In this document: positions 36,130 to 64,000 of the stretch, in pieces
Numbering within the stretch: position 1 is the first letter of the stretch
How the letters are laid out: each line of letters starts with the position of its first letter
DNA from: Spinacia oleracea
Taxonomy: Eukaryota; Streptophyta; Magnoliopsida; Caryophyllales; Amaranthaceae
DNA length: 64,000 nucleotides
Direction: 5' to 3'
Assembly (NCBI RefSeq): GCF_020520425.1
Contig: NC_079491.1
Span: 2,852,001-2,916,000 of the forward strand
Notes under the pieces: model-generated
Told to the model about the DNA's origin: nothing
What the model saw: only the letters and a program-made list of their open reading frames with translations
The model's database searches: none
Position numbers and translations under genes: made by a program

Positions 36130-36680
36130 TATGTCCACTATCTGTCCAGATCATAACCAATCTGCTCAGATCATATCTAGATCAGAATATTAATTCAATA
36201 TTTGATGTTAATGTTATTATTAATATATAATTCCATGTTAAGATTAATATTAATACATCAAAGCTTTGTTTCCTTCACCTTATTCTTATTGCATATCAGA
36301 TCATGTCAGAAAGCAAAAACACTCACATAAAACATTAAGATCATAGTAGATTAGACCAGACCATAAGCTAAAGAAATCAGACCAGATCAGGTGAAAAGAA
36401 CAAGGTCCAATTCAAAGAAACGTAAAAACATCTAGAACATTTGCAAAATAGTTTATGTCAACTTGAAACATGGCAATGAATAAAAGCTATGATAAATTAT
36501 TATTGATAATATACACTAATGGTACAAATAGTAATGTTCCGCAAATAGGAAGATATTGACTATTGTCACATAATAGTTACATCCAATTTTGAAGTATTGA
36601 ACTATGAATGTGTGATCTCAATCTGTTTTTTTATAGACCGAGATTATATTTCCTAATCAAAAAGTTTTATTTTTAGAATC

Positions 36681-37123
36681 AGGCAAATTTGTCAAATACA
36701 ACCTAATAAAGTTTTCTATTTGTCAATTACAACCTCAAATTTTAAATTTTGCCAATTACAACCTTAAACTTGTACACCTATTTTAAATTACAACCCTAAA
36801 CCATTTTCCGGCAAAAATCACCGGGAAATAATGTCATAACGTTATTAAAAAAAATTATAAAGTACTTAATATCTGTAAAAAAAAAAAAAATTCAATTATT
36901 TTATTTTAATTCTTATTTACTGATTTAAATTTTTTATAGAAAATATGTAACTATTTTTTTAATAACATTATTACATCATCTTCCGATGATTTTTTCCGGA
37001 AAATAATTTCGGGTTGTAATTTAAAATGGATGTATAAGTTTAAAGTTGTAATTGGAAAAAATAAAATTTGATGTTGTAATTGGCAAATAGAGAACTTTAT
37101 TAGATTGTATTTGACAAATTTTC
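36681..37123. mobile_element. Long-TIR foldback element downstream of PMEI copy A
   Basis: Left half (AATTTGTCAAATACAACCTA, CAATTACAACCTCAAATTTT, CCATTTTCCGGCAAAAATCA) is the approximate reverse complement of the right half (TAGATTGTATTTGACAAATT, TGTTGTAATTGGCAAATAGA). The paralogous site behind copy B (about 48876-48896) lacks it: TTTTTAGAATTACAAAGTTT runs straight through. Flanks TTTTAGAAT and CCTTAGAAAT suggest a 9- to 10-bp target duplication, as for Mutator-type elements. Confidence 0.75.
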
Positions 37124-37221
37124 CTTAGAAATTATAAAGTTTATAGATCTAGAGATCGAACATGTGGTCCGTTCAAGTCAACGGGCAAAGCTATAAATCG
37201 TTTTGGCTAGACTTAACTGAT

Positions 37222-37761
37222 TTACCTCGTATTAATCAACTGTTTAGTCAGCTTATAATCAGTTTCGATACTTAGAAGTCCTGAAAATACAGAAGGAGGT
37301 ATAGTAATTCCAGATGCAGAAAAAGTTGAACTACAAGTTATTAAATCTTTTGTAACAACTTCATCAATAGTTTTGCTAGCACCCGAAAAATCGCCAAAAA
37401 TAACTTGTCGTAGTATCCACTCACCTTTATGACTTAGAACATTTGTAATATAATCGTTCATTTTTTCGACGGCTTGTCTCGTTTTCGAGTCAGTGGTTTT
37501 ATCGTGGAGGATTTTTTCCACGTCTTGTACGAGTTTCGTAAGATCGCTATTGGCGCAATCAATCGTTGCTTTTATGAGATCTACGGCTACTTGGAAGTCT
37601 TTTCCGGCGTTGTTTACGCAGCTAGTGCATGCGACCGGGGCATTTGTTGCGTCGCACATTCGTTTTACGAGTAAATTGTCATTACCGGCATGTGTTTGAG
37701 AGATTATGAAAAGGATTAGAGAAATTATTAATTTGATGCTTTGATTGCAATAAAAAGCCAT
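37222..37761 (-). CDS. PMEI-like secreted inhibitor, copy A
   Basis: A 179-residue single-exon frame. Residues 1-25 (MAFYCNQSIKLIISLILFII, then SQTHA) form a signal peptide. The mature part has the cysteine pattern of the invertase/pectin methylesterase inhibitor fold: C36 and C45 spaced by eight (MCDATNAPVACTSC), with an extra C48. C69 lies in DCANSDLTKLVQDVEKI and C143 in DLITCSSTF. Length fits the family. PMEI proteins block cell-wall pectin methylesterases; related proteins block invertases; which target applies cannot be told. Overall similarity to canonical PMEIs is low, so this is a divergent branch. Copies B (48897-49338) and C (52577-53125) share MAFY/NAPV.CTSC, TDSKTRQ or TDPKTRQ, and SASGI.IP..VFSGL. 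The start is fixed by the signal peptide shared with copy C. Confidence 0.72.
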   Translation of the reverse strand: MAFYCNQSIKLIISLILFIISQTHAGNDNLLVKRMCDATNAPVACTSCVNNAGKDFQVAVDLIKATIDCANSDLTKLVQDVEKILHDKTTDSKTRQAVEKMNDYITNVLSHKGEWILRQVIFGDFSGASKTIDEVVTKDLITCSSTFSASGITIPPSVFSGLLSIETDYKLTKQLINTR

Positions 37762-38515
37762 TCAATTGAATTGAATTGAATTGAACTGAATTTTGTGTGT
37801 TTTTATTTGATTTTGTGAAATGTATGATTTTTTTTTTTGCTTATTTGATATATATACTCGTACAACCTTATTCATAAATAGATATGGTATTGTGCACCAT
37901 CCCCTTTTCCACTATATATAGTTTGCAAAATATAGTAAAATAAATCAAGATGCTTTCCGTCCTTACATTTTTTTTATTTAAATCGTCTTAATGAATATTT
38001 TAGGCACTTATAATTTTCATATCATTGTATCAAGGTTTGAACATTTCACCGTAAGATTTGTACTCTTTTCATTTCATAAAATTCCTCTGTTTTTTTCATT
38101 ATGCGCGGTTAACAATTTACTCCTTTAATCATTAATATATTTAAATATAATATGTGTTAGTAGAAATTATAAAAATCCAACAAAAATATTCGTCTTAATG
38201 AATATTTTAGGCAATTACAATTTACATATCATCGTATCAAGGTTAAAATTCTTCGCCGTAAGACTTACTCTTAATTTGTGTTACATGAAATTCCTCAATT
38301 TTTCATTATGCACGATTTTCAATACTTTATCCATTAATATCTTTAAACATAATAATACTCCGTAGAAATAAAAAATATCCAACAAGAAAATACTTTGTCT
38401 TATATCTTAACCAGCAACTACGGTCAAAGTTTTAAGGCACTAACCAAAAGAATAGTAAAAGCAAACAACTTTATAAAACTGGGGAAGTAGCTTACAATTT
38501 TATTACTCCCTCTGG

Positions 38516-41107: not shown

Positions 41108-41452
41108 GAGTAATAATAGTAATAGTAATCTGGTCTGGTCTTATCTGATATGATCTGAACTTATTTTTTCTGATCTAATCTGGTCTGGTCTGGTCTGATT
41201 TGATCTGATTAAATCTGAAATAAGTAATAAGGTCCTGAAATAAGGTGAATTAAACAGGGCCTTAGAGAGCATAAAGTTAAGCATGATGCAATATTAATTT
41301 ATTTTTTGAGGTTGAACGAGTTTTAACGATACTTGAACATAACTGATATGTCCAGATCATGAAGAGATCAGAACCGATATGTCCTGATGGTGACCAATCT
41401 CCTATCTAGATTAGAATATTGATGCAATATTTGATGTTAATGTTATTATTAA

Positions 41453-43557
41453 CGGTTTTTTCATGAAATGCCCCTGAGGTTTCACGAAATTCACCAAATA
41501 CCCCTGCGCGTTTCAAAATACATAATATACCCCTATTTTTTTTCCTATTGTTCACCAAATACCCCTATTTTGACTTTCTGTTAGTCCTCCGTTAAGTCAT
41601 GTTTATAATTCACCAAATGCACCTATTTATACACTTTTTGCACAATATACACCTATTTGTAAACTTGTTTGCACCAAATACCCAAACTGCTTTTAAACTG
41701 CATAATTTAAATCTTACGGCTTTGCAGTTCTAATCAGAGCTGTTTGTAACAAATTAGAGCAATAAATAGGGATTATATTCCATAAAAGATGATTAATTTG
41801 CATAGTAACTTTACAAAAACTTTGATTGCCATAATCTATTTGTGCATAAGGTTTAGGAATCAAAGCTGAATTTTGGTCAGTCCAACTTATATTGCAATGA
41901 GCCTTGTCTCCTGGACAAACATCAGCAATCTGGCTTTTGGATGGCACATCTTTTTGTGGCTTCCCTAATCTGTCTCAAACGCTTTTCCATGGTTGGTTGA
42001 TATCGGAAGACGGAACTACTGGAAGTATAGAATAAAGAAAAAAATCAAGGGAGCAGAACGCATTTGTGAACACTTTGCTACAAACAAAAAGTATTAGAAG
42101 AAGGCAATGCTTGTGAAAGCCTTCGGTTGTATGACTTTGCAAACTTGACAAACCCCTGTTATTCCTTGTCCTAGATTGCAAGCCTTTTATTTTAGTTTAA
42201 TCCTTCACTTGCCGCACAAGAGTGTGTTGAAAATTTATATGGAATAACATATGATGAAGTTTCATTTTCTTTTGAGAAAACGCAAACTAAGGATTTACTC
42301 TGATCTTCTCAAAGTTCTGCTCCTCATTTGATCAAGAAATTCCCATTAAAAGTTTTAATCTGTTTTTCGCAAAATATACACAATGGATTGACACCCAATC
42401 CCTTATATTATAAAAAAAACAAAATCTCACTCTTAAGAACTGACTTTTTGCACCTCATATGACCAGAAATTTCAAATTAAAAAAGTGAATGCTGAGCACT
42501 TTTATTCTGATTTTAACAAAATATACACAAAGGATTAACACTCAATCCATGTTTTGTTTGATCTTGATGATCTTCTCAAAGTGCTGCAAGTCATTTGATC
42601 AGGAAATTCACATTAAAAAAGTGAACATTGAACATTTTTATTCTGTTTTTTCCCAAAATACACACAGAGGATTATCATTCAATCCCTTTAGCAAAATACA
42701 CACAAAAAATGACATTGAAAAGCCTGCCAATCCCTTGCAAACCAATTAGCTTTTCGAACGTGATATTTGATCAAAATAGTGTTGAGTGGTTCCGTTCGAA
42801 ATTATAATAATGCAATTGCAATTTGCAAGGTCTTAGATCGCGATGTATTACCAAAAAGCTTCTTATACCTTCAGCCTGCTCAGCCAATTTGGCCAAGTAC
42901 ACATTCTCTTCCCGAGATCCTTCTACAGGCGACATTGTTTCTCACTTCAAGCAAAAATTAACGACCTAGGAAAGCATTCGGGTCAGGGTTCCTCCGTCTG
43001 GAGTTTGGTAGGGGGAAGGAGGTGGTTTGAGGAGAGAGAATTGAGAAGGCGTCGCCGTCTTCTCCTTCATTCGCTTCCGTCGCGCTTAATCCTCTCCTCT
43101 CAATGAATTTGTCCAGTAAAATGGATTCGTCGGACTTCCTCGATCTCTTCTCGCCGCCAGCCTTCAAGTCTTCAACCTTCATCTGCGGAAATGGTGGATT
43201 CACCGGACTTCCCACCACCTGCACTACCCAATCACCGGAAGAAGAGGCTTGTATTTCTGGGTAGTTTGAGGTGAATCAATGGCTATTGATGAATTGGGGG
43301 TGAGATCGAAGATGGGTTAGAACTAGGAGATGAGAGGAGAGAGAAGAAATGAGATTTATTTTTTTAAGTTAAAATATAGAATATTAGGTAAATAAGGGTA
43401 TAATCGTAAATTAAAGCTAACGGAGAACTAACGGTCGTTAAATACAAGGGTATTTGGTGCACTTTAAGTTTAAATAGGGGTATATTATGTATTTTGAAAC
43501 GCGCAGGGGTATTTGGTGAATTTCGTGAAACCTCAGGGGCATTTCATGAAAAAACCG
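41453..43557. mobile_element. Mutator-like element (MULE), non-autonomous, 9-bp target duplication
   Basis: Terminal inverted repeats of about 85 bp (left CGGTTTTTTCATGAAATGCC ... CGCGTTTCAAAATACATAAT; the right end is the inverse) are flanked by perfect 9-bp copies of TATTATTAA (41444-41452 and 43558-43566). The paralogous segment at about 36205 has TATTATTAA once and nothing inserted. Long TIRs and a 9-bp duplication define a MULE. Inside are three degenerate repeats of about 125 bp (42290-42720, with AAATATACACAAAGGATTAA-like words). There are also coding-looking stretches: minus strand about 41714-42030, and plus strand 43103-43264 (KMDSSDFLDLFSPPAFKSST). No MURA transposase is present. 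The coding pieces may be captured host exons, but I recognise none. Confidence 0.88.
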
Positions 43558-45684
43558 TATTATTAATATACTTTTTCATGTTAATATTATTATTAATAAA
43601 TCAAGATTTTGTTCTCTTCACTTTATTCTTATTGCATATCAGATTAGACCAAATTAGCCTAGATAAGACCAGAAAAAAAAAGCAAGAAGCACTCAAAGAA
43701 AACATTAAGATCGGACTAGCTAGATTAAACCATACCAGAAACTAGAAAAATCTGAACCAGATCAGGTAAAAAGAACAAGACCCAATTCAAAGAAACTTAA
43801 AAATACCTAGAACATTTGCAAAACAGGTTATGTCAACTTGAAAGATAGCAATGAACAAAAGCTATGATAAATAATTTATATTTATTGATAATGTACACTA
43901 ATGGTCACTACAAAAATATAGAGCAAGGAGGGCGACACTTTTCAAACAAAGAGGGCGATTAAATTGTCGCCTTTAAATAATTAACCAACTAGGGCGACAT
44001 TATATCGTTGTCGTACACATGAACAATAGGGGCGAAATGGGTAGAGTCGCCCTTTTTGTTAAAAATACGAAAACAATAAGGGCGAACAGGGTGGGGTCGC
44101 CCTTTTTGTTAAAAATACGAAGACGTCAAGAGTTGCCCTCTTTGAAAATCCCAAATTCGTTATCAAAATAATAAAACATAAGTCAGAGTTCTCGAAAATC
44201 CCAAATTCGTTATCGGCCATTATGACTCCTACTCTTCTGCCAGAGTTCTTCAAGAAACTCCAAACACAAACCCTAAAATCCCAAATTCGTTTTCCATAGA
44301 AAAAAATCAATCGACTCAGTTTTTTTGTTGCCCTCTCTCTCCCTGATTCTCTCCCGAATTCCTTCCTAGATTATCCTAATTGATTGAATTTCTCAACTTC
44401 GTCTATGCTTAGTTCGTAACCTCGGGGATTTGTTCGAAAAAAGCCCGATTTATGCTGAGATTTGTTTGAGAGAAGATCAATTTCCGCAGATATTTGTTCG
44501 AGAGAAGGCCGATTTCTGCTTACTGGTATCATCTACTTCTTTTGAATTTTCCATGAATGTGGCAAGTGTTCTACACTTCTACTTGCATTGTTGTATCCTG
44601 TATGGTTAATGTTGTAATTGATGAAATTATAATATGGTTAATGTTGTAATTGATATCACGAAGATTGCGTTTTATTGATTTGGTTGTCGACTTGTCGGAA
44701 TAATGTTCAATTTGATTAGTTATTGAATTTGTTCTCGTTGGATTTTAACACAATCATTTCATATCGTCAATTACAAGAGATTACTACAGTGTGATAACAA
44801 ATCCCTGATGGAGTTAATCAGGTAAATATATATTCATTTGTGGCCTCTCGCTTGGAGTGTGCGATAATCTGGATTGGAGAAAAAAGGTGTTTTTCCATAT
44901 CGATTTGGTTCTAAAGGAGTACAAGTAAAGTTCAGTCAAGAATATATATATGGAGTATTATTGGGAAGATAATGCTTATAGAAGTAGAACATATGCTTCA
45001 TTTGTTATATTGAGGATAAGTTGACTCTTTATTGATAATATGTTAATAGTGTTTGGAATATTGTGGAGATGTATTGGAACTCCATTTTTGGAAGCTTCAC
45101 TTTATATTATTACTGCAGTTGCAATATTGTGGAGATCTATTGGAACCCCATTTCTGAATTGTTTATTTGATCCCAATATTGAGGCTGAAGGCGCATCAAA
45201 ACTCTCGTTAAAAACCTATTTGTCGGACTAATCTCAGTGTTGCAATGACTACAAACAATACCACTCCCTTTTTTGTTAGGGAAACTAATTAAGGGATAAT
45301 GTTACTGACTTAGTAAATCATAATATAACCAAGACCTTTCTATATAAAATTCACAAATTTAAATGTTAAAAATCCCTTTTCTAGTGGATCTAATCCTGCC
45401 CCAATTTTCCAATAGATATGCTTTGTTTGGTTATCAGCAATTTGCCAGACGAATAAGTGGATTCAGACAAACTAGCTTTTTGCAGGAGTAAAGCCAAAGT
45501 GCTTATTGAATTGGAGTCTAAGTCTGTAACTAGTTTATGGTGCTAAGTGCTAACACAGTGAATGAATCTGCTAACACAGGGATAGCCTGATGGACCTTTG
45601 TACACATGCCTTGTCCAGATATCCTGCTGTTAGAGCCATTTGAGGTTTCCCGTTGCTAATGCATAACTTTAATCATTAATAGTC

Positions 45685-45786
45685 AGGGAGTGTTGGAGCT
45701 AAAACGGCAAACCTCGGAGCTTAATGAGCTAGACAACTTGATGATACCTTCTGAAAACGACGAGTTTGCTGTCTACATTCATAATG

Positions 45787-45841
<55 letters not shown>

Positions 45842-45975
45842 ATTTGATATTGAAGATGGTGACAGTAACAATAATAATAATCATAAGCTGATTTTGAAAG
45901 CTTCATTGTGTTGTGAAGATAGGCCTGATCTCTTTGCTGATCTTAATGGGGTGTTGAGTTCTTTGAATTTGCTTA
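45685..45975 (+). pseudogene. bHLH transcription factor C-terminal fragment captured in the CACTA element
   Basis: The frame reads SVLELKRQTSELNELDNLMI, PSENDEFAVYI, an Asn run coded by (AAT)n, then LILKASLCCEDRPDLFADLN and GVLSSLNLL. This order is characteristic of the bHLH30/bHLH106-type plant factors, where the end of the second helix (VKELKRQT) leads to an ACT-like domain (LKASLCCEDRSDLL). The DNA-binding basic region and first helix are missing, and the ACT-like domain stops after its first helix, where an intron or break begins (TATATATATGAATAA). It lies in the plus orientation upstream of the transposase gene. The poly-Asn run (about 45788-45840) is a microsatellite. A host gene fragment carried by the transposon is the simplest reading. 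Confidence 0.72.
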
Positions 45976-46345
45976 TCTATATATATATGAATAATTAAAT
46001 AATAGTCAGGAATATAAATCAGATTAAAACGTACATAATATGAATCAATTATTTTTCTGTCAAGATTAGGTTTCTACTTTCAGGTACTCATATGTCTCTT
46101 TGATCAGTTCACTACGAGTACAAATTGACGACATTTACCTTGATCATGTTTGTTTCTTTGCTTAATTTTATCCTCATGACTGTTATTTTATCTCTCTCTT
46201 TGCCAGACTAGACTTTGCTTATTTTTATTTAGTTTTAACAGTAGTTTCATATTCTTTGTTGTTCATGTTATTTTATGATCAAGTTTGCAGTAGTTTCATA
46301 TTCTTTGAATGACTAGTATAGTATATGTTCTTGTGATTAGATAGC

Positions 46346-48550
46346 ATGGATAATGATAGGAGTTGGATGCATATACAAGGGTTGAGAAATCGGCTACAAC
46401 CAACTTATCGAAATGGTGTTCAAAATTTTCTCGATTTTGCTTTCAAAGACACAATCCCTAATACCGGGGCTAAGAAAAGGTGTCCTTGTTTGAAGTGTCG
46501 AAATTACATCGACCATAATCGAGAGACAATGCGGGCTCATCTTTTGCGAGTAGGAATGGAGCCTGACTATAATCCGTGGATATTCCATGGAGAAGAACAA
46601 CTTGACATGGGAAACATGGAAATGTCCGAGGAGGAAGGTGATTTGTTTGATGATGAAGATCCTCTCGTATCCGAGGAGATGGCTGCTTTGGTGCATGATG
46701 CCACAAATGTAGTGCCCGAGAATTTGAATGATAGAGATGAAGAGGATAAAGACCATCCTGAAATTCCTGATAAGTTTTATAGGTTAATGAAAGATGCAGA
46801 AGAAGAATTATTCTCGGGTTGTAAAACCTTTTCAAGGTTGGAGTTCATCGTAACTCTCTTACATCTCAAGGTTAGTGGACATTGGCATGATAAGTCCTTT
46901 ACTTTGCTGCTTAGTGCGTTACATAAGGCCTTCAATTATGATCCTAAATTTCCAAAGAGCTCCCGTGAAGCCCAGAAGTGCACAAAAGATCTTGGGTTGA
47001 ATTATGTGAAGATCCATGCTTGTGTAAATCATTGCATTCTTTATAGAAAGGAGTATGAAAATGTCGATTCATGCCCTACTTGTGAGGAGTCCAGATGGAA
47101 AGAAGGTAGTGGTGAATTTGATGATAGTGTCACATTTTCGGAATCTCAAGGGACCTCACAACGGATTCCTAGAATACCTCGTCTAGTTCTTCGTTATTTT
47201 CCTTTAGTTCCTAGGCTTCAAAGGCTTTTTATGTCTTCAAAAATTGCTAAGCACATGAGATGGCATAAGGATAGGAAGCGAGTTGATAAGGACGTATTAA
47301 GGCATCCATCTGATTCAAAGGCATGGGAGAAGCTCGATGATTCATTTCCTGATTTTGCAGCAGATCCACGTAATGTGAGATTAGGTCTTTCAACTGATGG
47401 TTTCAATCCTGGTGCACATTTAGGCACTAAGTACAGTATATGGCCAGTCTTTTTAGTGCCATATAATCTCCCACCATGGATGTGTATGACAAGTCCTTAC
47501 ATCATGCTATCACTCTTAATTCCTGGTCCAAAGTCCCCCGGAAATGATATAGATGTGTTCTTGGAGCCGTTGATCGATGAATTTCAAGAGTTATGGGAAG
47601 TTGGGGTGAAAACTTATGATTCACATAGTCGCCAAAATTTTAATATGAAGGCAGCGCTATTGTGGACAATGAGTGATTTTCCTGCTTACGGGAATCTGTC
47701 TTGTTGGAGTACTTGTGGTAAACTTGCTTGCCCAACATGTCATAAGCATACTTGGCACAAGCGGTTAAAGCATGGATCGAAAGAATGCTTTAAAGGTACT
47801 CGTATGTTCTTGGAACCCGATCATAGGTGGAGAAATGACAAGAAATCTTTTGATGGGGAAAAGGAGAGACGACCACCTCCTATTCCTTTGTCAGGGGATG
47901 AGATATTAGAGGCATTTGATGGTGTCCCCAATGTGATTTTTGGGAAGAAGCGAAAGAGAACCGATCGATACTTGTTTGACCAATGGAAGAAGTTGAGCAT
48001 CTTCTTTAGACTTCCTTATTGGAGTAAGCTTTTGATAAGACACAACTTAGATGTCATGCATATTGAAAAGAACATTTGTGACAGTATATTAGGAACAATA
48101 CTTGATATTCCTAACAAGAAAAAAGACACCTTGAAAGCTCGAAAGGATTTGAAGGAGATGAATGTGCATCATAATTTAATTCCTATTAAGATAGGTGATA
48201 AATATGCCATCCCTAGAGCACCATATCAGTTGACATCTATAGAGAGGCGTAAAGTATTGGAGTTCTTGTCCAAGGTTAAAGTGCCAGATGGTTACTCTTC
48301 TAACATAGCTCGATGTGCAAGTATGGAAGACGGAAAAATCTCAAACATGAAAAGTCATGATTGTCATGTGTTCTTGCAAGATTTGCTTAAACCGGCATTT
48401 CAAGGTATCTTACCTAAGGAGGTGCTAGAACCTTTGGTTGAGCTTAGCTTATTTTTTAAGCAATTATGTTCTAAAACTCTAAAAATTGATGTGTTGGAGA
48501 AGATGGAAAAGAGTATTGCAATTACTCTTAGCAAGCTTGAAAAGGTATAA
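46346..48550 (+). CDS. CACTA transposase (TNP2-like, Transposase_21), C-terminally truncated
   Basis: 734 codons from ATG at 46346. Residues about 4-80 form the transposase-associated zinc domain (RSWMHIQGLRNRLQPTYRNG, FLDFAFKDT, CPCLKCRNYI). Residues about 345-600 are the Transposase_21 core: LGLSTDGFNPGAHLGTKYSI, YNLPPWMCM, LLIPGPKSPGNDIDVFLEPL, AALLWTMSDFPAYGNLSCWS, ACPTCHKHTWHKRL, then HNLDVMHIEKNICDSILGTI. The frame ends inside the following DUF4218-type segment (LVELSLFFKQLCSKTLKIDV, TLSKLEKV), then stops directly at the element's subterminal repeats. Full TNP2-like proteins continue for several hundred residues, so this one is truncated by an internal deletion or rearrangement at about 48547. 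The remaining frame is free of stops. Whether it transposes itself is doubtful; it may be moved by related enzymes. Confidence 0.88.
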   Translation: MDNDRSWMHIQGLRNRLQPTYRNGVQNFLDFAFKDTIPNTGAKKRCPCLKCRNYIDHNRETMRAHLLRVGMEPDYNPWIFHGEEQLDMGNMEMSEEEGDLFDDEDPLVSEEMAALVHDATNVVPENLNDRDEEDKDHPEIPDKFYRLMKDAEEELFSGCKTFSRLEFIVTLLHLKVSGHWHDKSFTLLLSALHKAFNYDPKFPKSSREAQKCTKDLGLNYVKIHACVNHCILYRKEYENVDSCPTCEESRWKEGSGEFDDSVTFSESQGTSQRIPRIPRLVLRYFPLVPRLQRLFMSSKIAKHMRWHKDRKRVDKDVLRHPSDSKAWEKLDDSFPDFAADPRNVRLGLSTDGFNPGAHLGTKYSIWPVFLVPYNLPPWMCMTSPYIMLSLLIPGPKSPGNDIDVFLEPLIDEFQELWEVGVKTYDSHSRQNFNMKAALLWTMSDFPAYGNLSCWSTCGKLACPTCHKHTWHKRLKHGSKECFKGTRMFLEPDHRWRNDKKSFDGEKERRPPPIPLSGDEILEAFDGVPNVIFGKKRKRTDRYLFDQWKKLSIFFRLPYWSKLLIRHNLDVMHIEKNICDSILGTILDIPNKKKDTLKARKDLKEMNVHHNLIPIKIGDKYAIPRAPYQLTSIERRKVLEFLSKVKVPDGYSSNIARCASMEDGKISNMKSHDCHVFLQDLLKPAFQGILPKEVLEPLVELSLFFKQLCSKTLKIDVLEKMEKSIAITLSKLEKV

Positions 48551-48716
48551 GACCAAAGAGGGCGCTTATTATTATTTGCCCTGAAAAGCTAATACGACGG
48601 TTGTAACAGGGCGATGTTGAGGGCGATTATAGGGTCGCCTTTGTAGCTTAACAGGGCGATATTTTGATCAAAGAGGGCGACTTATTTCGCCCTCTTTGGT
48701 CTTATATGTTGTAGTG
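48547..48716. repeat. CACTA right end with a duplicated inverted terminus (hairpin)
   Basis: TATAAGACCAAAGAGGGCG at 48547-48565 is the inverse of CGCCCTCTTTGGTCTTATA at 48688-48706. So the inner part of a terminus occurs twice, inverted, about 120 bp apart, and the left copy is fused to the transposase frame. Confidence 0.8.
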
Positions 48717-48896
48717 GGTACAAAATAGTAATGTTCCGCAAATAGGAAGATATTGTCACAAAATAGTTACATCCCAATTTTAAGTATTGAATTATGAATG
48801 TATGATTTCGATCTATTTTTTATAGACCAAGATTATATTTCCTAAGTAACCAAAACAAGAAGAAAAAAAATAGTTTTATTTTTAGAATTACAAAGT

Positions 48897-49338
48897 TTAT
48901 AGATTATCGAACAAATCACCCTTGTCAATTAGTTGTTTAGAGAGTTTAAAATCAGATTCGGCGCTAAAAAGTCCTGAAAACACAGGAGGAGGTATAGTAA
49001 TTCCAGATCCAGAAATGATTTTACTGCAAATTATCAAATCTTTTGTAACAACTTCATTAATAGTTTTGCTAGCACCCTTAAAATCGCCACTAGAAATTGT
49101 TTCTTTTATCCACCCACCTCTATGACTTAAAACTTTCGTAATGTACGAGTTCATTTTTTCCATGGCTTGTCTCGTTTTCGAGTCAGTGGTTCTATCGTGG
49201 AGAATTTTTTGCACGTCTTTTTTGAGTTGATTAACATCGTTAATCGCGCAATCAACCATTGATTTGATGACTTCTACGCCTTTTGTAAATTCTTTGTGGG
49301 TGTTGTTTATGCAGCTAGTGCATGCGACGGGAGCATTA
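48897..49338 (-). pseudogene. PMEI-like copy B, signal peptide and start lost
   Basis: From NAPVACTSCINNTHKEF to the stop at 48897 the frame matches copy A throughout (TDSKTRQAMEKMNSYITKVL, SGDFKGASKTINEVVTKDLI, SGSGITIPPPVFSGL). Upstream of NAPV the match ends abruptly at about 49338. Instead of the first conserved Cys and signal peptide there is sequence (ACATGTAAATACTTTGTCTT) that corresponds to DNA roughly 600 bp upstream of copy A (about 38330-38400). A deletion thus removed the promoter, start and signal peptide. The frame stays open to an ATG at 49394, but that start gives no proper signal peptide and lacks the first Cys. Probably dead or mislocalised. Confidence 0.8.
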
Positions 49339-49488
49339 ATTATAAAAATAACATGTAAATACTTTGTCTTATATAACATCTTTAAACATAACATGTACCG
49401 TATGTGTTAGTAGAAATATAATTATAAAAATCCAACACGTAAATACTTTGTCTTATATCTTAACCAACAACTATGGTCAACGTTTTAA

Positions 49489-52111: not shown

Positions 52112-52350
52112 TACTACAAGAAATGGTAGCATTAATGACGGAATATCCCATCACTAAAGACCAATAATCGTCATAAAAGGGGGCCACCATTAATGAAAAA
52201 TTCCGTCGTTAACCCGTCGCAAAAAGACATTTGCGACGGTTGTTCTCGTTTTTGTTTGATTATTATCCCCGTCGCAATTAAAGGCTTTTACGACGGGATT
52301 TTTAATCCGTCGTAATTAGATTGTCGTTAAAGATACAAATTCTTATAGTG
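52112..52350. mobile_element. CACTA-type MITE
   Basis: Left end TACTACAAGAAATGGTAGCA (first base changed from C) and inverted right end CACTATAAGAATTTGTATCT. The interior holds TTTGCGACGG, CCCGTCG and TTAACGACGG words. Same family as 54563-54810, 56079-56334 and 56936-57341. It lies downstream of PMEI copy C. Confidence 0.8.
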
Positions 52351-52576: not shown

Positions 52577-53125
52577 TTAATCCTTAGGTTTTAAGGTAAT
52601 TAATTGATTAGAGAGCTTATAATCAGATTCGATATTAAAAAGTCCAGAAAATACAGGACGAGGTATATTAATTCCAGACGCGGAAATAATTTGACTACAA
52701 GCTCTCAAATCCCCAAAAACAATTCCATTAATCATAACGGTAGCTTCCTTAAAATTTCCCAAATTAACTTTTCCTTGTATCACCCTATTTTTAGATGACA
52801 TACTTGAAATGTAAGGTTCAATTTGTTGGATGACTTGTCTCGTTTTCGGGTCCGTGGTTCTAAGGTCACGTATCATGGTCACGTCTTCTTTTAACGTCGT
52901 AACGTCGTTATCGGCGCAATCAAGCATTGCGTCGACGACATCTACGCCCGTACGAATGTCTTTTCCGATGCCGTGTACGCAACTCGTGCATTCGACGGGA
53001 GCATTTGTTACGCTACACATTTGGTTGATGAGTGTAACGTTAATGACCTTACCATGTGTTTTGGAGATTATTATGCAAATGAGAGAAATTAGTAGTATGA
53101 TGTTTTGCTTGTAATAAAAAGCCAT
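52577..53125 (-). CDS. PMEI-like secreted inhibitor, copy C
   Basis: A 182-residue single-exon frame. Residues 1-24 are a signal peptide (MAFYYKQNIILLISLICIII, SKTHG). The PMEI-fold cysteines are C37 and C46 (MCSVTNAPVECTSC, with extra C49), C70 (DCADNDVTTLKEDV) and C143 (DLRACSQII). The end SASGINIPRPVFSGLFNIES matches copies A and B. It is more divergent than A is from B. The expected location is the apoplast or secretory pathway and the expected role is inhibition of a cell-wall enzyme; neither target nor activity can be read from sequence. A TATA-like TATATATATACC lies near 53233-53244, about 110 bp upstream. The minus-strand leader holds (CA)n/(AC)n and poly-A runs. Confidence 0.72.
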   Translation of the reverse strand: MAFYYKQNIILLISLICIIISKTHGKVINVTLINQMCSVTNAPVECTSCVHGIGKDIRTGVDVVDAMLDCADNDVTTLKEDVTMIRDLRTTDPKTRQVIQQIEPYISSMSSKNRVIQGKVNLGNFKEATVMINGIVFGDLRACSQIISASGINIPRPVFSGLFNIESDYKLSNQLITLKPKD

Positions 53126-53451
53126 TGAATTTGATTTTTAAATTTGTGTGTGTGTGTGTGTTTGTGGGTGTGTTTTTTTTTTGTTTTTTTTTTTTTATAT
53201 ATGTAAATGTATGTTTTGTTTTGCTTACTTGAGGTATATATATACCTTATTCCTAAATAGATATGGTATCTTGCACCATCCAATATTGATCTCCAACTAT
53301 AGTAAAAGAAATCAGGATGCATGTTTATATATGTCCGTCTTAGAATAATGGTTTACATTGTGTTATTCATTGCTTACATGTTTAGCATCAGTGTCGGAGC
53401 TACGATTATGTCGTGATTATGGGTTCTGTGCAATTTCTCAATTCGTGGACT

Positions 53452-54439: not shown

Positions 54440-55325
54440 TAGCTGAGTCGAGTCGAGTCGAATTTTAGTCTTTTTGAGCTGAGTTGGATAAGAGTTTTTA
54501 GTGTTCGATCTAACTCGAGTTTGAACTAGCTTTGAAAATTCTTATTCGAGCTTGGTTCGTTATACTACAAAAAATTGTACCATTAACGACGGAAAATCCC
54601 GTTGCTAAAGGCCAATAATCGTTGACTAATGACGGAATTTTCTGTCCTGAACCCGTCATAAAAGGGGGTTGTCATTAATGGAAATCCCGTCGTAAATCGT
54701 AAAAGACATTTGCGACGGTTGTTCCCGTCTTTGTTTGGTTGTTAGCCCTGTCGCAAAAATTTTGACCCGCCGTAATTAAGTTGTCGTTAAAGATACAAAT
54801 TCTTGTAGTGTTATGACTTTGGTTTGTTCGAGCTTTGTTCACGAACAAGCTTGTTCGCATTTCGAGTTTGAGCTCGAGTTTAAACGAGTTGAAATCGAGC
54901 TTGATAAACTAAACGGGCTTTAAATTGAAGTTATCATTATAACCAAAAAGTTATTGGTTCATTTATTATATTAAGTTTTTACAAATGTTTCTACAATAAA
55001 TATATAGGACCAATTACTGGTATACACAATGAGAATTTTGATTTCATTTAAAGAAATATGTCGAAAGAAACTGAAATAGTTTTAAATTTTCATATATTTT
55101 TTCGAGCTTAAACGAGATTTTAATTTGAACATAATTACGATTGTAAAAGAACTTAAATTACTTGTTCACAAATGTTAACGAGTCGAACATGAAGGTTTTC
55201 GAGCTTGACTCGTTTACTTAACGAGCTTAATTTTTTGTTTAAGCTTGTTTATTAATTTATCAAACGAGATATGACTGAGCTTAATTGTTCGCGAATAGTT
55301 CACGAACGTATCGACTCATTTACTC
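54440..55325. repeat. CGAGCTTG dispersed repeat, longest copy
   Basis: Runs from TGAGTCGAGTCGAGTCGAAT to ATAGTTCACGAACGTATCGA, with both ends rich in ACTCGTTTA/GAGTCGAG words of inverse sense. Interrupted by a CACTA MITE at 54563-54810. It may be an element with imperfect inverted ends; no coding capacity. The following 55331-56078 is AT-rich with a (TA)n run at about 55935-55962 and no gene seen. Confidence 0.55.
54563..54810. mobile_element. CACTA-type MITE nested in the CGAGCTTG repeat, TSD TTA
   Basis: TACTACAAAAAATTGTACCA at the left, CAAATTCTTGTAGTG at the right, flanked by TTA (54560-54562 and 54811-54813). In the uninterrupted copy at about 9210-9240 the host sequence is continuous. 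Confidence 0.82.
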
Positions 55326-56078: not shown

Positions 56079-56334
56079 CACTACAAGAATTTATATCTTT
56101 AATGACAACCTAATTACGACGGGTCAAAAATCCCGTCGCAAAAGCCTTTACGACGGGAATAACCATCGCAAATATCTTTTACGACGGTTTTACGACGAAT
56201 TCACGACGGGATTTTCTATTAACGACGGCCCCCTTTTATGACGGGTTCGCGACAGGAAATCACGTCGTTAATCAACGATTATTGGTCTTTCGCGACGGGA
56301 TTTCCCGTCGTTAATAGTACAATTACTTGTAGTG
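56079..56334. mobile_element. CACTA-type MITE, TSD TAA
   Basis: CACTACAAGAATTTATATCT at the left, GTACAATTACTTGTAGTG at the right, flanked by TAA on both sides. Interior GACGGG/CCCGTCG words. Orientation opposite to the copies at 52112 and 54563. Confidence 0.85.
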
Positions 56335-56935
56335 TAAAAAAATTATGATGACTCATAGTTTACGTGGCGCTTATATGTACCAATTAAACTTCGACATGTA
56401 AAATTGCGACAACTAAATGTTATCGCAAATTGCGACCTTTATCATCATCCAAATAAAATTATCCGTTGAACGTTTCTTTTAAGAAAAGAAAACAAAGTAA
56501 TACAAATTCCTTAAAAGAACAAGGCAATATAAATAATCCACAGACAATAAATGAAGCACACAATATGGTTACATGAAAACCCCAATACGGAGAGAAAAAC
56601 ACGATACTCTTTTCACTAATTACGAATTCAATGAATAAGTTCCACACAAACATCACTAATAACAATCTTGGAACAATAAGTTCTCCACAATTATATAATT
56701 CTACAAGTGGTAATTATAATTAAATGGAGATTGTTACTAAAAATTAAATGAAAATACCTATTAGCGTTGAATATGTAGGTTGGGTTGATTTATATCCGCG
56801 ATTATCACACACAATCCCTAATTCTTAATCAATATGTATGTCAAGACATTGTTAATATTAAAATTACAAGAGTGAAATAATAAGACCGCCTTTCAAAAAA
56901 AAAAAAAAAAAAAATACCAGACCCACACTACAAGA

Positions 56936-57341
56936 AATTGTACCATTAATGACGGGAAATCCGGTCCGTTAAAGGCCAATAATCGTTAATTAACGACGGG
57001 ATTTCCTTTCGCGAACCTGTCATAAAAGGGAATTGTCGTTAATGGAAAATCCCGTCGCTAACCCGTCGTAAATGACATTTGCGATGGTAAAATGTGTATC
57101 TTTAACGACAATCTAATAACGACGAGTCAAAAATTCCGTCGCAAAAGCTTTCTACGACGGAGCTAACAACCAAACAAAGACGGGAACAACCATCGCAAAT
57201 GTGTTTTACAACGGGATTTACCATTAATAACGCCCCCTTTTATGAAGAGTTCGCGATAGAAAATCTCGTCATTAATAATGATTATTGACCTTTAGCGACG
57301 GAATAGAATTTCCCGTTGTTAATGGTACAATTTCTTACTTA
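56936..57341. mobile_element. CACTA-type MITE, longer rearranged copy
   Basis: Begins CACTACAAGAAATTGTACCA; the right end, GGTACAATTTCTTACTTACC, has lost the final TAGTG. About 405 bp: the interior contains both a left-type half and an inverted half, so it may be a fusion of two copies. A poly-A run precedes it. Confidence 0.7.
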
Positions 57342-58522: not shown

Positions 58523-58573
58523 AGTACTCACTAAAAACACAGGAAACCCTATTTGAGTCAAGTTCCTGATAGT

Positions 58574-60406
58574 ATGAACTCACAAGAGAAACTGGAAGAA
58601 GGTTACTCAACGCAAAGGCCACCTATGTTCAATGGCAAGTTCTACTCATACTGGAAGAACAGAATGGAGATATTCATCAAAGCTGAAAATTACCAAGTTT
58701 GGCGTGTAATTGAAGTTGGAGACTTCGAGGTAACAAAGACCAATGCTGAAAACGAGGTAGTTCCTAAACCAATGTCTGAATTTTCTAAAGAAGACTTTGA
58801 TAAATATGAGATGAATGCTATGGCTGTCAAAATCTTGCATTGTGGACTTGGACCTCATGAACACAACAGAGTCATGGGGTGCCAGAACGCAAAACAGATT
58901 TGGGAGTTGCTACAAGTAACCCACGAAGGAACTAATGAAGTTAAGCGTTCCAAAATCGACCTTTTGATGTCTAAATATGAAAGATTTGAAATGCTTCCAA
59001 AAGAAACTATTCAAGAAATGTTCACTAGATTTACTAACATAACTAATGAATTAGTTTCTCTTGGTAGAATCATTCCCACAGATGAACAGGTGAGAAAAAT
59101 ACTAAGAAGCATGCCACAAGATGATCGTTGGAGAACAAAGGTCACTGCACTGTTTGAGACCAAGGACTTTACAAAGTTCAACATTGAACAACTTGCTGGT
59201 TCCTTGATGACACATGAATTGCACCTTGGAGCTGCTGTTCCTGAGAGCTCTAGAAACCGAGGACTTGCTCTAAAAGCTGAGGAACTCGACGAATCTGAAC
59301 CAGATGAAGAAGAGGCTGCCATGCTGGTTAGAAGAATGAGAAAGCTCTACAGGAACTTCAAACCAGGAAATCAGAAAGGAAGGAACCTTGCTAAGAAAAT
59401 CTCTAGTTCCAAAACTGAGCAAGGTTGCTTGAAATGTGGAGAAACTGATCATCAAATTCGTGAATGCCCTCTGTGGGAGAACGACAAAACCAGAGGAAAA
59501 GGGAAGGAACAGGTCAAGGATCGCTTTAACAAGTCTACCTTCAACAGGCCAAACTTCAAGAAAGCCATGATAGCTGCATGGGGCGAAGCAACAGACTCAG
59601 AAGACGATGAGGAATTACCAAATGAAGAAACCGCAAATCTCTGCCTTATGGCTAGAACAGAAGGAACTGATCAAGTTCCATCAGAAGAAGTAAGTTCCTC
59701 CACTCTTCAGTGCCTTTCAAAGTCAAAACTAATTGAACTGTTGCTAGAAACTCTAGATGATTACAAAAAGCTAAGTATGTTAAAAGCACAAAGTGATAGA
59801 GCCTTGGAACTCAGTAAAGACCATATAAATTATCTGAACAATATTAGATCTGATGTTCAAGGCAGGTTCTTTGAATTACTAGATAGAAATACCTCTATTA
59901 ATGAGTCATTCGAGAAAATTAGAAATGAAAACATCCTTCTACAAGTACAACTCAGTCAATATAAGATGTTTAATCTAAGTTTAGATCCTACAAAATCCTT
60001 GGAGATCAACATGGGAGTTTTTAACATCGACTTAGAAAATTTAAACAAAGATCTGATCACCACAAAGGAACAGAAAGAGAAACTAGAGAGGGAACTAGCC
60101 ATGGCCAGGGCACAGAGACAACCACCTAAAGTTCCTCCCAAATGGATTGAGAATGCTCAATCTAAGAGAACAGAAGGATTGGGCTTTAATCATAAAACTA
60201 GTCATAAGAAAAAGTATGTGGATCTTCCTAGTGTGAAAGTCTGTTTCTCATGTGGAAGTGGAAGTCATGTAAGTACTGAGTGTTCCAAGATGAAGGAACA
60301 GGATCAAAGAAACATAAATTATGTAAAGCAAAAATGGGTTAAGAAGTCAGAAGTTGTAGTTGAAAAGGAACTCGAGGAAACCCGAGTTCCTGTAACTAAC
60401 CTTTGA
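58574..60406 (+). CDS. gag: Copia Gag polyprotein
   Basis: The first ATG in frame is at 58574 (MNSQEKLEEGYSTQRPPMFN), about 610 codons. Residues about 15-230 are the UBN2/retrotran_gag capsid region (YSYWKNRMEIFI, QIWELLQVTHEGTNEVKRSK, TNELVSLGRIIPTDEQVRKI, LRSMP). A CCHC zinc knuckle lies near residue 283 (CLKCGETDHQIREC). A long coiled-coil-like Glu/Lys-rich spacer is followed by a second CCHC knuckle near residue 556 (CFSCGSGSHVSTEC). The stop TGA (60404-60406) separates gag from the pol frame, which opens across it. The body is intact. Confidence 0.85.
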   Translation: MNSQEKLEEGYSTQRPPMFNGKFYSYWKNRMEIFIKAENYQVWRVIEVGDFEVTKTNAENEVVPKPMSEFSKEDFDKYEMNAMAVKILHCGLGPHEHNRVMGCQNAKQIWELLQVTHEGTNEVKRSKIDLLMSKYERFEMLPKETIQEMFTRFTNITNELVSLGRIIPTDEQVRKILRSMPQDDRWRTKVTALFETKDFTKFNIEQLAGSLMTHELHLGAAVPESSRNRGLALKAEELDESEPDEEEAAMLVRRMRKLYRNFKPGNQKGRNLAKKISSSKTEQGCLKCGETDHQIRECPLWENDKTRGKGKEQVKDRFNKSTFNRPNFKKAMIAAWGEATDSEDDEELPNEETANLCLMARTEGTDQVPSEEVSSSTLQCLSKSKLIELLLETLDDYKKLSMLKAQSDRALELSKDHINYLNNIRSDVQGRFFELLDRNTSINESFEKIRNENILLQVQLSQYKMFNLSLDPTKSLEINMGVFNIDLENLNKDLITTKEQKEKLERELAMARAQRQPPKVPPKWIENAQSKRTEGLGFNHKTSHKKKYVDLPSVKVCFSCGSGSHVSTECSKMKEQDQRNINYVKQKWVKKSEVVVEKELEETRVPVTNL

Positions 60407-63085
60407 TCTCTTTACAGATTCTAGTGAAGGGGAACAGCTCGTGGTATCTCGACAGCGGGTGTTCCAAACACATGACAGGAGAGAAATCTAAATTCCTCTC
60501 ACTAGAAGCCTACAATGGAGGAACTGTGACCTTTGGAGACAACATGAAAGGAGAAATTGTTGGAATTGGAAAAGTTGGAAGGTCAAGTTCCTATGCCATT
60601 GAAAATGTATTTTTAGTCGAGGGTTTAATGCACAGTCTACTAAGCATTTCTCAATTTTGTGACAAAGGAAACTCTGTAAGTTTTACTTCTGAAAATTGTC
60701 AAATCATCAATAATAACACTGGGAAGGTTATTTTGGAAGGAACTCGTAAAGGGAACACATATTCTGTGGATCTCAATACAGTTCCCAGGAACAATTTAAC
60801 ATGCCTCAGTGCCTTTGAAGAAGATTCCCTACTATGGCACAAGAGGTTTGGACATGCTAGTTTCTCCCTGCTTGACAAACTAAGATCAAAGGAACTGGTT
60901 CGAGGACTCCCCTCAATCAAGTTCCTAACTGATAAAGTGTGTGATGCATGTGCAAAAGGCAAGCATGTCCGAAGTTCCTTTAAGTCTAAGAAATTGGTAA
61001 GTACCACAAAACCATTGGAACTCATCCATATGGACTTATGTGGCCCAATGAGAATTCAAAGTAGAAGTGGGAAAAAATATGTATTAGTTATTGTTGATGA
61101 TTACTCTCGCTTTACTTGGGTCATATTTCTAACAAGCAAGGATGAAACGTTTGATGAGTTTTTTTGCATTTTCAAAGAAAATTCAGAAAACCACAGGTCA
61201 TCAACTGATCCATATAAGATCAGATCATGGAACAGAATTTGAAAATTACAAATTCGATGAATACTGCAAGGAACAAGGTATGGACCACAATTTCTCAGCT
61301 CCCAGAACTCCACAACAAAATGGAGTTGTTGAGAGGAAAAATAGAACCTTAGAGGACATGGCAAGAACCATGTTAATAGCCAGTTCCCTGCCTAGGAACT
61401 TCTGGGCTGAAGCAGTCAATACAGCTTGTTATATTATAAATAGAGTTATGATTCGAGCAATCCTAAACAAAACCCCCTATGAGCTACTAAAAGGTATAAA
61501 ACCCAACATCTCTTACTTTAGAGCCTTTGGTAGCAAATGTTTTGTCCACAACAATGGAAAAAGGAACTTGGGGAAGTTTGATGAAAGAAGCGATGAGGCA
61601 GTGTTCCTAGGATATGCCTTAAATAGCAAAGCTTACAGAGTTTATAACAAAAGGTCTATGTGTGTTGAGGAAAGTGTACATATAATATTTGATGAATCTA
61701 ACAAAACTGTTATAGTACAGGAACAAGAACATTTCGAGATTGGTTTATCTCGTGCTGCAGAAAATGATGAGGAGTTCCAACCAAGCAAACACACAGCCAG
61801 AGGAACTGCTCAACAAAATCAAGAAGTTCCCGTACTAGTGGAACACGAAGAAATCCAAGAAGATCCAGAAACAACACCAGAACCAGAGGAACTCCACAAT
61901 GACCGACAGGGAACTCAGGTCATAGAAGGAACTGACGAAAATGCCACAACACCAGTAGCTCAGTTTCAACCTAAACCTTGGAAGCATCAAAAGTCTCACC
62001 CAATGGAACTCATTATGAGTGACATCAGAAAAGGAACTCAGACAAGGTCACAACTAAGGAACTTTTGTGCATTCCACGCGTTCCTCTCCATATTTGAGCC
62101 AAGAAATCACAGTGAGGCTCTGGAGGATGCTGACTGGATCATAGCCATGCAAGAAGAATTAAATGAATTCAAAAGAAACAAGGTGTGGCACTTGGAACCC
62201 AAACCAAAGCACCAGAAAGTGATAGGGCTGAAATGGGTGTTCCGGAACAAGAAAGATGAACATGCAACAATCATAAGGAACAAGGCAAGGTTAGTGGTCA
62301 AAGGTTATAACGAACAGGAAGGTATTGACTTTGAAGAAACATTTGCACCTGTTGCTAGATTAGAAGCCATTAGAATCTTAATTGCTTTTGCTGCCTTCAT
62401 GGGTTTTAAACTTTATCAAATGGATGTTAAATGTGCTTTCTTAAACGGTTTCTTAGAGGAAGATGTTTATGTGGAACAACCCCCTGGATTTGAAAATCCC
62501 GAATTTCCAAATCACATTTACAAACTAGATAAGGCTCTCTATGGACTAAAACAAGCCCCTAGATCTTGGTACGAGAGATTATCAAAGTTCCTCCTTCAAA
62601 ATGATTTTAAAAGAGGTAGAATAGACAAAACTTTATTTTTAAAATCTAGAGGAACTGACTTGTTAGTAGTTCAAATTTATGTTGATGATATATTGTTTGG
62701 AGCAACTAATGCGAATTTGTGCAAGGATTTTGCAAACTTGATGAGCAGTGAATTTGAAATGAGCATGATGGGGGAACTCAACTTCTTCCTTGGTTTACAA
62801 ATCAAGCAAACTGAGGAGGGAATCATGATACACCAACAAAAGTATGTGAAGGAACTCCTAAAGAAATATGAGCTAGAATCAGCCAAAGTAAACCACACTC
62901 CCATGGGAACAGCTACCAGATTAGACTCTGATCCAAATGGGAAAAGTGTGAATCAAACGAAATACAGAGGTATGATTGGATCACTATTATATTTAACAGC
63001 CAGTAGACCTGACATTTCTTTTAGTGTAGGACTATGTGCAAGATTTCAATCCAATCCAAAGGAGTCCCATCTAACTGCTCAGAAA
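60407..63085 (+). pseudogene. pol: Copia pol (protease, integrase, reverse transcriptase), frameshifted and truncated
   Basis: The protease active site is WYLDSGCSKHMTG. The gag-pre-integrase zinc finger follows (LLWHKRFGHASF ... DACAKGKH). Integrase begins LIHMDLCGPM and continues VIVDDYSRFTWV. A run of seven T at about 61158-61165 then shifts the frame by one. The rest reads on in the second frame: SDHGTEFEN and the integrase Glu in [11 protein letters not shown]. Reverse transcriptase follows ([49 protein letters not shown]) with the catalytic YVDD at about 62680-62691. Sequence ends at about 63085 before RNase H. The frame break could be a homopolymer error, but the missing 3' end is real. 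Confidence 0.88.
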
Positions 63086-64000
63086 TACTCAAAATATATG
63101 AAGATAGATTTGTCAGCAATCGATCTCAGTTTTTTTTTATCAAGAGTTGTTACTCGCATAGAAGCTAGGCCCAACCTCTGAATATAAATAACCCCCATGA
63201 TTATTTCTTTTACATCATTGAAGACGAAGCCAGACAACACAACGAAGAAGGAGCTCACGCTTTCCAAGTTAAATCTCGACGGAGCAACTATAAATATACC
63301 TCCATAATCTGTCAATTTTTAATCACCACCAACTATATTTTGTATATTGAAGCCCGTGGAAGGAGCTGTCCGTTCGTGCCAGACGCATAGCTGCTTGAGT
63401 CTGTATTTGATTCCGAAAGGAGATCTGCGTCCGTTTGTTTGAACGTTCTTCCATGGGTCTGATTGGAGCTTGTCGAGTACCGGTCCTGCTCGCTGAGGTT
63501 TGAGCTTTCCATCGCTGTCGTCGAAGAGTTGTCCGTTTTGAGGAGCGTCGCTGCTTACTGTCCATGAAGGCGTTTCCCGTGGGTCCGATAAGAGCTTGTA
63601 AAAGACATCGTCCTGCTTCTTCCGAGACTTTGCTTCTTACCGGTATGTGTTTTGATTATTCATCTTTCAGCAATCTTGAAATCTCTGTTTGAAAACCTTG
63701 CTTATTCTCTCTGTTTTATGCTACTGAACCTTAATTTTCTTTACAAAATCACAAATCACAAATGGTAATTGATGAATGATGATGGGTGATGGATGATGAG
63801 TTGATGACAATGGTGGGCCCCAACATTGTTTTTTTCTCTTTCTTTCTTTCCTTCTTTTTCACGTGAATCCCTCTTTTCTTTTCTTTTTTCTTTTTTTTTT
63901 CTTTCGAAATAACCAATGAATGTGATAATGGATGATGTCGAGGGCTATATACCTTTTTTTTTTTCTTCACATGACTTTGCTGCTTCTTTTCTCTCTCTTT
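63086..64000. other. Right-hand end: no identified gene
   Basis: After the copia break the sequence changes character. A GC-richer stretch (63360-63640) holds two imperfect direct copies of a module with GGGTCTGATTGGAGCTTGTC / GGGTCCGATAAGAGCTTGTA and TTCCATGG/TTCCCGTGG, then a good donor, CTTACCG|GTATGTG, at about 63642. It could be the 5' UTR exon of a gene continuing to the right. From 63750 to the end is a T/C-rich low-complexity run. Confidence 0.35.

Follow-up and report, generated by a model that had tools for sequence, protein, structure and literature searches.

When a transposon has entered one of two related segments, can its ends, its target, and the order of events be read from the DNA, and can the origin of what it carries be traced? 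This question is raised by a locus in a 64-kb stretch of Spinacia oleracea DNA (64,000 nucleotides, positions 2,852,001 to 2,916,000 of contig NC_079491.1, forward strand), which we call the window and whose own numbering is used below. Two of its segments, A and B, each hold a PMEI-like gene copy, and B is interrupted by a CACTA element that is absent from A. Our analysis makes it very probable that a duplication produced the two segments, that the element arrived later, that it is defective, and that its leader is assembled from host DNA; how this DNA was captured is a separate and much less certain matter. The features are listed in Table 1.

Insertion site and its unoccupied paralog

The insertion, its target, and its ends can be read directly from the window. 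The insert opens with CACTACAAAAAT at position 43906 and closes with TTGTAGTG at 48716, giving a length of 4811 bp (first bases, CACTACAAAAATATA; last bases, TTATATGTTGTAGTG). The initial annotation had recognized a CACTA insert here, which stands, but had placed its start at 43916 and its length at 4801 bp, in both cases off by 10 bp. As it had also proposed, GGT flanks the insert on both sides in B and is present once in A: the 20-mer ACACTAATGGTACAAATAGT occurs a single time in the whole window, at 36513 in segment A, where the site is uninterrupted. When the B flanks were fused minus one GGT, the comparison that the initial annotation had called for, A matched continuously across the joint; directly past it, the run of A's is one base longer in segment A (ACAAATAGT) than in B (ACAAAATAGT). 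We also joined the B flanks with shifts of up to 8 bp per side, added 200 random joins, and scored all of them against A. The top score (353) went to the GGT join and its three equivalents, tied with one join at +3/+3; the random joins averaged 25, with a highest single draw of 302.

The concern that the flanks might not be paralogous was not borne out, since they align at 79.6% identity over 480 columns (E 2e-120) and at 80.4% over 404 columns (E 4e-105). A and B are thus true paralogs with an identity of about 80%. Their divergence in substitutions alone is 10.9% in the flanks and 15.6% in the PMEI-like region, and differences are also present close to the insertion site. The PMEI-like copy in B (48897-49406) has lost its 5' part, and its homology with A ends at 49337. 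We use the name PMEI tentatively for both copies: the profile match reaches 22.3 bits in copy A against a cut-off of 29, and 13.6 bits in copy B, where Herpes_U44, which we take to be a chance match, scored higher and above its own cut-off. Paralog C (PMEI-like open reading frame at 52577-53137) was considered as additional evidence for the empty site and set aside, as its homology ends just to the right of the site; a different CACTA-type end adjoins the point where it ends.

Comparison with an empty site is a routine approach, and the initial annotation's remark that such internal proof is rare finds no support in this locus, where the same A/B pair contains two further one-sided insertions. 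One, 2.1 kb long (41452-43558), lies in the left flank of B; its terminal inverted repeats are perfect over 87 bp, ATTATTA borders it on both sides, and the matching place is continuous in A. The other is an inverted-repeat element in A (about 36672-37133) resembling a miniature inverted-repeat transposable element; it has no counterpart at the matching place in B and, judged by alignment spacing, is missing in C too.

Family membership and truncation of the transposase

We assign the insert to the CACTA (En/Spm-like, CMC) elements because of its ends, its 3-bp target duplication, the GGGCGA repeats in both termini, and its tnp2-type transposase. Each of these features fits the class named in the initial annotation. 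The terminal inverted repeats CACTACAA are perfect over 8 bp, and of the 15 GGGCGA/TCGCCC hexamers in the window, 12 fall no more than about 200 bp from an end of the element, in both orientations at each end. The right 165-bp module is the region matched by most of the listed genomic copies.

Genome searches covered one assembly (894 Mb, 242 contigs), in which the window lies on contig C5. With the right end, 40 of 187 candidates were scored and gave at least 45 match rows at no fewer than 40 copies, five rows being opposite-strand matches inside listed copies; with the left end, 40 of 42 candidates gave at least 40 match rows. These matches point to a family of dozens of copies. Among 17 copies compared at both ends (the window copy included, out of more pairs listed), the TAGTG end lies at the same place in all 17 and the CACTAC start in 16, so that the termini are not displaced in other copies; a 3-bp target duplication accompanies 14. 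A uniform, shorter subfamily of four copies (4251 to 4255 bp) has the same ends, and two of its members lack a clean 3-bp duplication. A search for relatives of the transposase in IMG/VR gave 10 pattern stretches, none of which was confirmed.

The transposase open reading frame matches Transposase_21 (PF02992, E 9.4e-93) and Transpos_assoc (PF13963, E 4.1e-20), and its stop codon, inside DUF4218, was created at the joint of an internal deletion. At this position, the DNA continues in all five relatives compared (copies L014 to L017 and L021), with 3436 bp held in L021 and 5530 to 5759 bp in L015 to L017. Translation past the joint likewise continues in the three relatives translated (L021, L033, and L035; L033 and L014 are one and the same copy), the L021 frame having its own stop further upstream. 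The right terminus, which has the same reading when inverted, may have been the template for the three filler bases at the joint, yet these are too short for proof. The closest full-length copy (C6:11725781-11738623; 12,843 bp; target duplication ATT) holds 8394 bp at the position of the joint, and it has 64 amino acids of DUF4218 and a DUF4216 exon. Its identity to the window copy is 99.2% in a stretch of 2305 bp, 99.1% in one of 330 bp, and 98.2% in the final 165 bp; the first 801 columns, with 19 mismatches and 36 gaps, reach 93.1%. In substitutions, this amounts to 0.8% in the 2305-bp transposase part and 2.5% in the first 782 bp with gaps left out. The window element is defective: tnp2 is cut within DUF4218, the DNA up to the last 165 bp is gone, and it lacks the complete transposase gene that an autonomous CACTA element requires. 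Because both ends are kept, it could in principle be moved by transposase made elsewhere.

Composition of the leader

A variable leader separates the transposase part, which starts at about base 2339 in the coordinates of the C6 copy, from the 5' part shared with other copies, which ends at about element base 849. Like the internal deletion, the apparent host gene pieces of this leader had gone unmentioned in the initial annotation. The clearest of them, element bases 1778-2066, had one other match in the genome search, on contig C1. The alignment contains 33 gap bases, in AAT and AAC/AAT runs; two of the differences fall in the first 98 bases and none in the last 90, the other four lying in or just after the AAT run. 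At the C1 locus, two coding stretches lie 2.9 kb apart: the first holds an HLH domain (PF00010, E 1.3e-8), the second a match to the plant bHLH ACT-like domain (PF22754, E 2.7e-5, 24.8 bits), and we take the two as exons of one bHLH gene. The piece by itself had no pertinent match in Pfam, gave two weak matches in the PDB via runs of N, and yielded no match for its peptide words in the literature; its identification comes from the C1 donor locus. A second piece, of 42 bp, derives from the DNA that separates the two coding stretches; 295 bases of the donor are missing between it and the exon piece.

Element bases 850-1735, used as a genome query, matched nine places: the element itself, two relatives, three putative host loci, and three short matches of 41 to 52 bp. 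The match at C3:76631863 lies about 1.2 kb upstream of an open reading frame that we interpret as the beginning of a sensor histidine kinase gene, Pfam giving there only dCache, below its cut-off. That at C3:12682925 is on the upstream side of TENA_THI-4 open reading frames (PF03070), about 2.9 kb away, and a second piece of this upstream locus is found further right, so that the bHLH pieces lie between two pieces of another locus. In total, the leader of the window copy holds pieces of 42 to 311 bp from four loci on three contigs. No other element parts were found at the three non-bHLH loci at E 1e-4 in 9.9 kb around each. Parts of two pieces recur in relatives: element bases 1038-1195 (from the C3:76631863 piece) in the 12.8-kb copy, and bases 1422-1635 (from the C4:143116912 piece) in a 20-kb copy on C6. 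Both captures are therefore older than the window copy. Copying would have run from host to element, a direction that for the bHLH pieces follows from the coding gene and that we infer for the other three loci.

Cargo in related elements

Two relatives carry other DNA after the shared part of the leader. In the 12.8-kb copy, all 866 bases of it align to C4:40058446-40059298 at 97%. Stretches of 0.85 kb and 0.81 kb beside that place, compared with six family sequences, gave no match at E 1e-4. A piece of a Vps62 gene is present, in two frames (PF06101, E 3.5e-51 and 4.9e-12), in the 20-kb copy (L035). On its right, this cargo joins transposase base 4223, not 2339, since the transposase part in between is lost, and the slot thus agrees with that of the other copies just on its left side. 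L021 and L037 likewise have leaders unlike the others. Different cargo after the shared leader part is thus evident by sequence comparison in three members (L035 with the reservation just given) and likely in five.

Six cargo loci were found altogether. Four have a gene direction, and all four pieces are in sense orientation: bHLH, TENA_THI-4 upstream, kinase-like upstream, and Vps62, the gene assignment of the two upstream pieces being drawn from neighboring open reading frames. This sample is too small to set against chance. One might speculate that the family keeps an exchange slot upstream of the transposase that takes sense 5' and intron-exon parts of host genes, from which the transposase may borrow promoters, leader exons, or splice sites, but we consider such a reading improbable.

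Order of events and alternative explanations

The history very probably begins with a tandem duplication that gave rise to A and B. Much later, the CACTA transposon entered the GGT of B, duplicating it and leaving A unoccupied; a cut-and-paste reaction is what the superfamily leads one to expect. Since the element differs by only 0.8 to 2.5% from its relative and the paralogs by 11 to 16%, duplication first, as in the initial annotation, is by far the simpler order. Had the insertion come first, exact excision or gene conversion would have had to remove the copy in A, and such losses are plausible in general, as cut-and-paste elements leave and tandem copies undergo gene conversion. However, A holds a single clean GGT with no footprint, and the differences between A and B near the site leave no recent conversion tract to be seen, which together with the disparity in divergence makes this order very improbable. 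The copying between leader and host loci could also have run the other way, with element sequence spreading into the host. The loci C4:143116912, C3:12682925, and C3:76631863 would fit this, as each is known by its similarity and by one listed occurrence outside the family. The bHLH piece, in contrast, stops within a coding stretch that continues, and the locus concerned encodes HLH and ACT-like domains; the Vps62 piece of L035 codes for protein; and the lack of further element parts around the three loci does not agree with spreading, which we regard as highly unlikely.

Pieces of no fewer than four host loci very probably accumulated in the leader, and among the longer of them that from the bHLH gene on C1 is the least diverged. 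For the capture step, our preferred account is that they entered in faulty break repair, at excision or within the element, with template switching. Several short, shuffled pieces favor template switching, and we hold this route to be the most likely one, at about an even chance. Pack-CACTA elements have been proposed to arise differently, two neighboring elements with complementary terminal deletions moving as one hybrid (PMC13317346, PMC8903248), and the window element is indeed a mosaic between relatives. Yet short pieces from four loci on three contigs would demand several rounds, or again template switching, and neither the position of the bHLH pieces between two pieces of one locus nor the 295 missing donor bases sits easily with this route, which we consider possible but doubtful.

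Several points weigh against the history of duplication, later insertion, and capture. Taken alone, the empty site might also reflect an exact loss in A. What the divergence from the nearest copy dates is a shared ancestor rather than the insertion, and the split of the two copies may precede or follow that event; moreover, the first 782 bp, with the gaps and mismatches given above, diverge more than the transposase part. Deletion and capture may have taken place after the insertion, in situ. A clean 3-bp duplication is missing in 3 of the 17 copies and the CACTAC start in 1. On the donor side, the ACT-like match stays below the Pfam cut-off of 27.6 bits, the 42-bp bHLH piece, with 4 of its 42 bases changed, is more diverged than the exon piece, and both the direction of copying for three of the four host loci and the capture mechanism are inferred. 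All comparisons come from one assembly.

For plant transposons, one-sided insertion and scraps that look copied from host genes are nothing out of the ordinary, and it is the detail in which they can be followed here that is unusual: a single assembly gives the insertion ends, the target, the empty site, the nearest full-length relative, and the donor locus for part of the cargo. As the members examined differ in the DNA at one internal position, they form a workable system for studying how transposons pick up genes. Whether the position of the cargo reflects a mechanism or just what selection tolerates is a question that can be studied in this family.

Table 1. Features of the locus and related copies (positions in the window unless a contig is given)
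Feature	Position	Strand	Basis
Paralogous segment A, with open PMEI-like reading frame of 179 amino acids (37222-37761, minus)	36200..37790	+	Alignment, open reading frame
Empty site in A, ACACTAATGGTACAAATAGT, single GGT	36513..36532	+	20-mer match
Paralogous segment B, interrupted by the CACTA element; PMEI-like gene without 5' part	43560..49337	+	Alignment
GGT target duplication, left copy	43903..43905	.	Sequence at insert edge
CACTA element, 4811 bp, internally deleted	43906..48716	+	Termini, GGT duplication, empty site in A, 17 copies compared
Left terminus, CACTACAA and subterminal GGGCGA/TCGCCC, 5 plus and 2 minus hexamers	43906..44102	+	Hexamer count
Variable leader between shared 5' part and transposase part, apparent host pieces	44755..46243	+	Copy comparison, genome search
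Piece matching C3:76631863-76632181	44790..45100	+	9/296 aligned bases differ, 38 gap bases
Piece matching C4:143116912-143117165	45327..45578	+	17/252 aligned bases differ
58-bp piece matching C3:12682925-12682982 (minus)	45581..45638	+	3/58 differ
42-bp piece from between the two bHLH coding pieces (L013 3832-3873)	45638..45679	+	38/42 identical
Piece of second bHLH coding stretch, C1 (L013 4169-4424), sense	45683..45971	+	250/256 identical
Stretch common to the L021 copy	45980..46100	+	Copy comparison, 98.3%
Second piece of TENA_THI-4 upstream locus (L067 4616-4545)	46122..46185	+	3/64 differ, 8 gap bases
Truncated tnp2 transposase open reading frame, 734 amino acids: Transpos_assoc, Transposase_21, first 28 amino acids of DUF4218	46346..48550	+	Pfam
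Internal deletion joint, about 3 bases of filler	48548..48552	.	Comparison with relatives
Right 165-bp terminal module, 4 plus and 1 minus hexamers	48552..48716	+	Hexamer count, genome matches
GGT target duplication, right copy	48717..48719	.	Sequence at insert edge
Shorter-subfamily copies	C4:185735618-185739870, C1:113466877-113471127, C1:5693383-5697637, C3:36224956-36229207	.	End comparison

Other features of the window

Beside PMEI-like copy C lies a possible mini-CACTA of another family, with CGACGG repeats (about 52113-52350). Its right end lies roughly 10 bp away from where the insertion site of B would align; its left end was read by eye, and there is no clean duplication. Three more CACTA-type termini (CACTACAAGAATTTRTATC-like, at most 2 mismatches) follow 3' of copy C (54792-54810, 56079-56097, and 56926-56944), which together with that at 52332-52350 makes four in the window against 0.23 expected. 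Three long overlapping open reading frames at 58535-63181 encode a polyprotein, which we take to be of the Copia type.

Comparison with known systems

A variable region that differs between copies and often resembles genic and non-genic host sequence is described for Hatvine-6 of grapevine (PMC2528002); the likeness to our element lies in this region, Hatvine-6 being a hAT and not a CACTA element. The coding DNA captured by Pack-CACTA and other Pack-TYPE elements often stems from two or more loci (PMC8903248, PMC13317346), and the spinach element resembles them in its bHLH piece. Pack-TYPE elements are described as non-autonomous, recognized by hits to coding genes, and kept separate from potentially autonomous families (PMC8903248); the spinach element, in contrast, retains most of a tnp2, though a broken one, besides its captured pieces.

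Tgm-Express1, a soybean CACTA element with intron and exon pieces of five unrelated host genes (PMC1947982), shares with the spinach element the presence of pieces from several host loci, at least four in the latter. Tgm-Express1 lies within an intron, and host transcripts include its pieces through splicing, whereas the spinach element lies outside the coding part of a gene copy without its 5' part and, unlike Tgm-Express1 as described there, has kept a long transposase open reading frame. In Chenopodium, which like spinach belongs to the Caryophyllales, CACTA elements carry host fragments (Neprosin, AP2) in their 5' region, upstream of the first transposase domain, and the authors note that some regions seem prone to capture (PMC8978399). 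Judging from these accounts, both multigene capture by CACTA elements and capture upstream of the transposase are already known. The spinach element shares with those of Chenopodium the position of the host fragments; compared with what is described there, it carries other genes, combines several loci in one member, has relatives with other cargo, and can be traced, for its bHLH pieces, to a donor.

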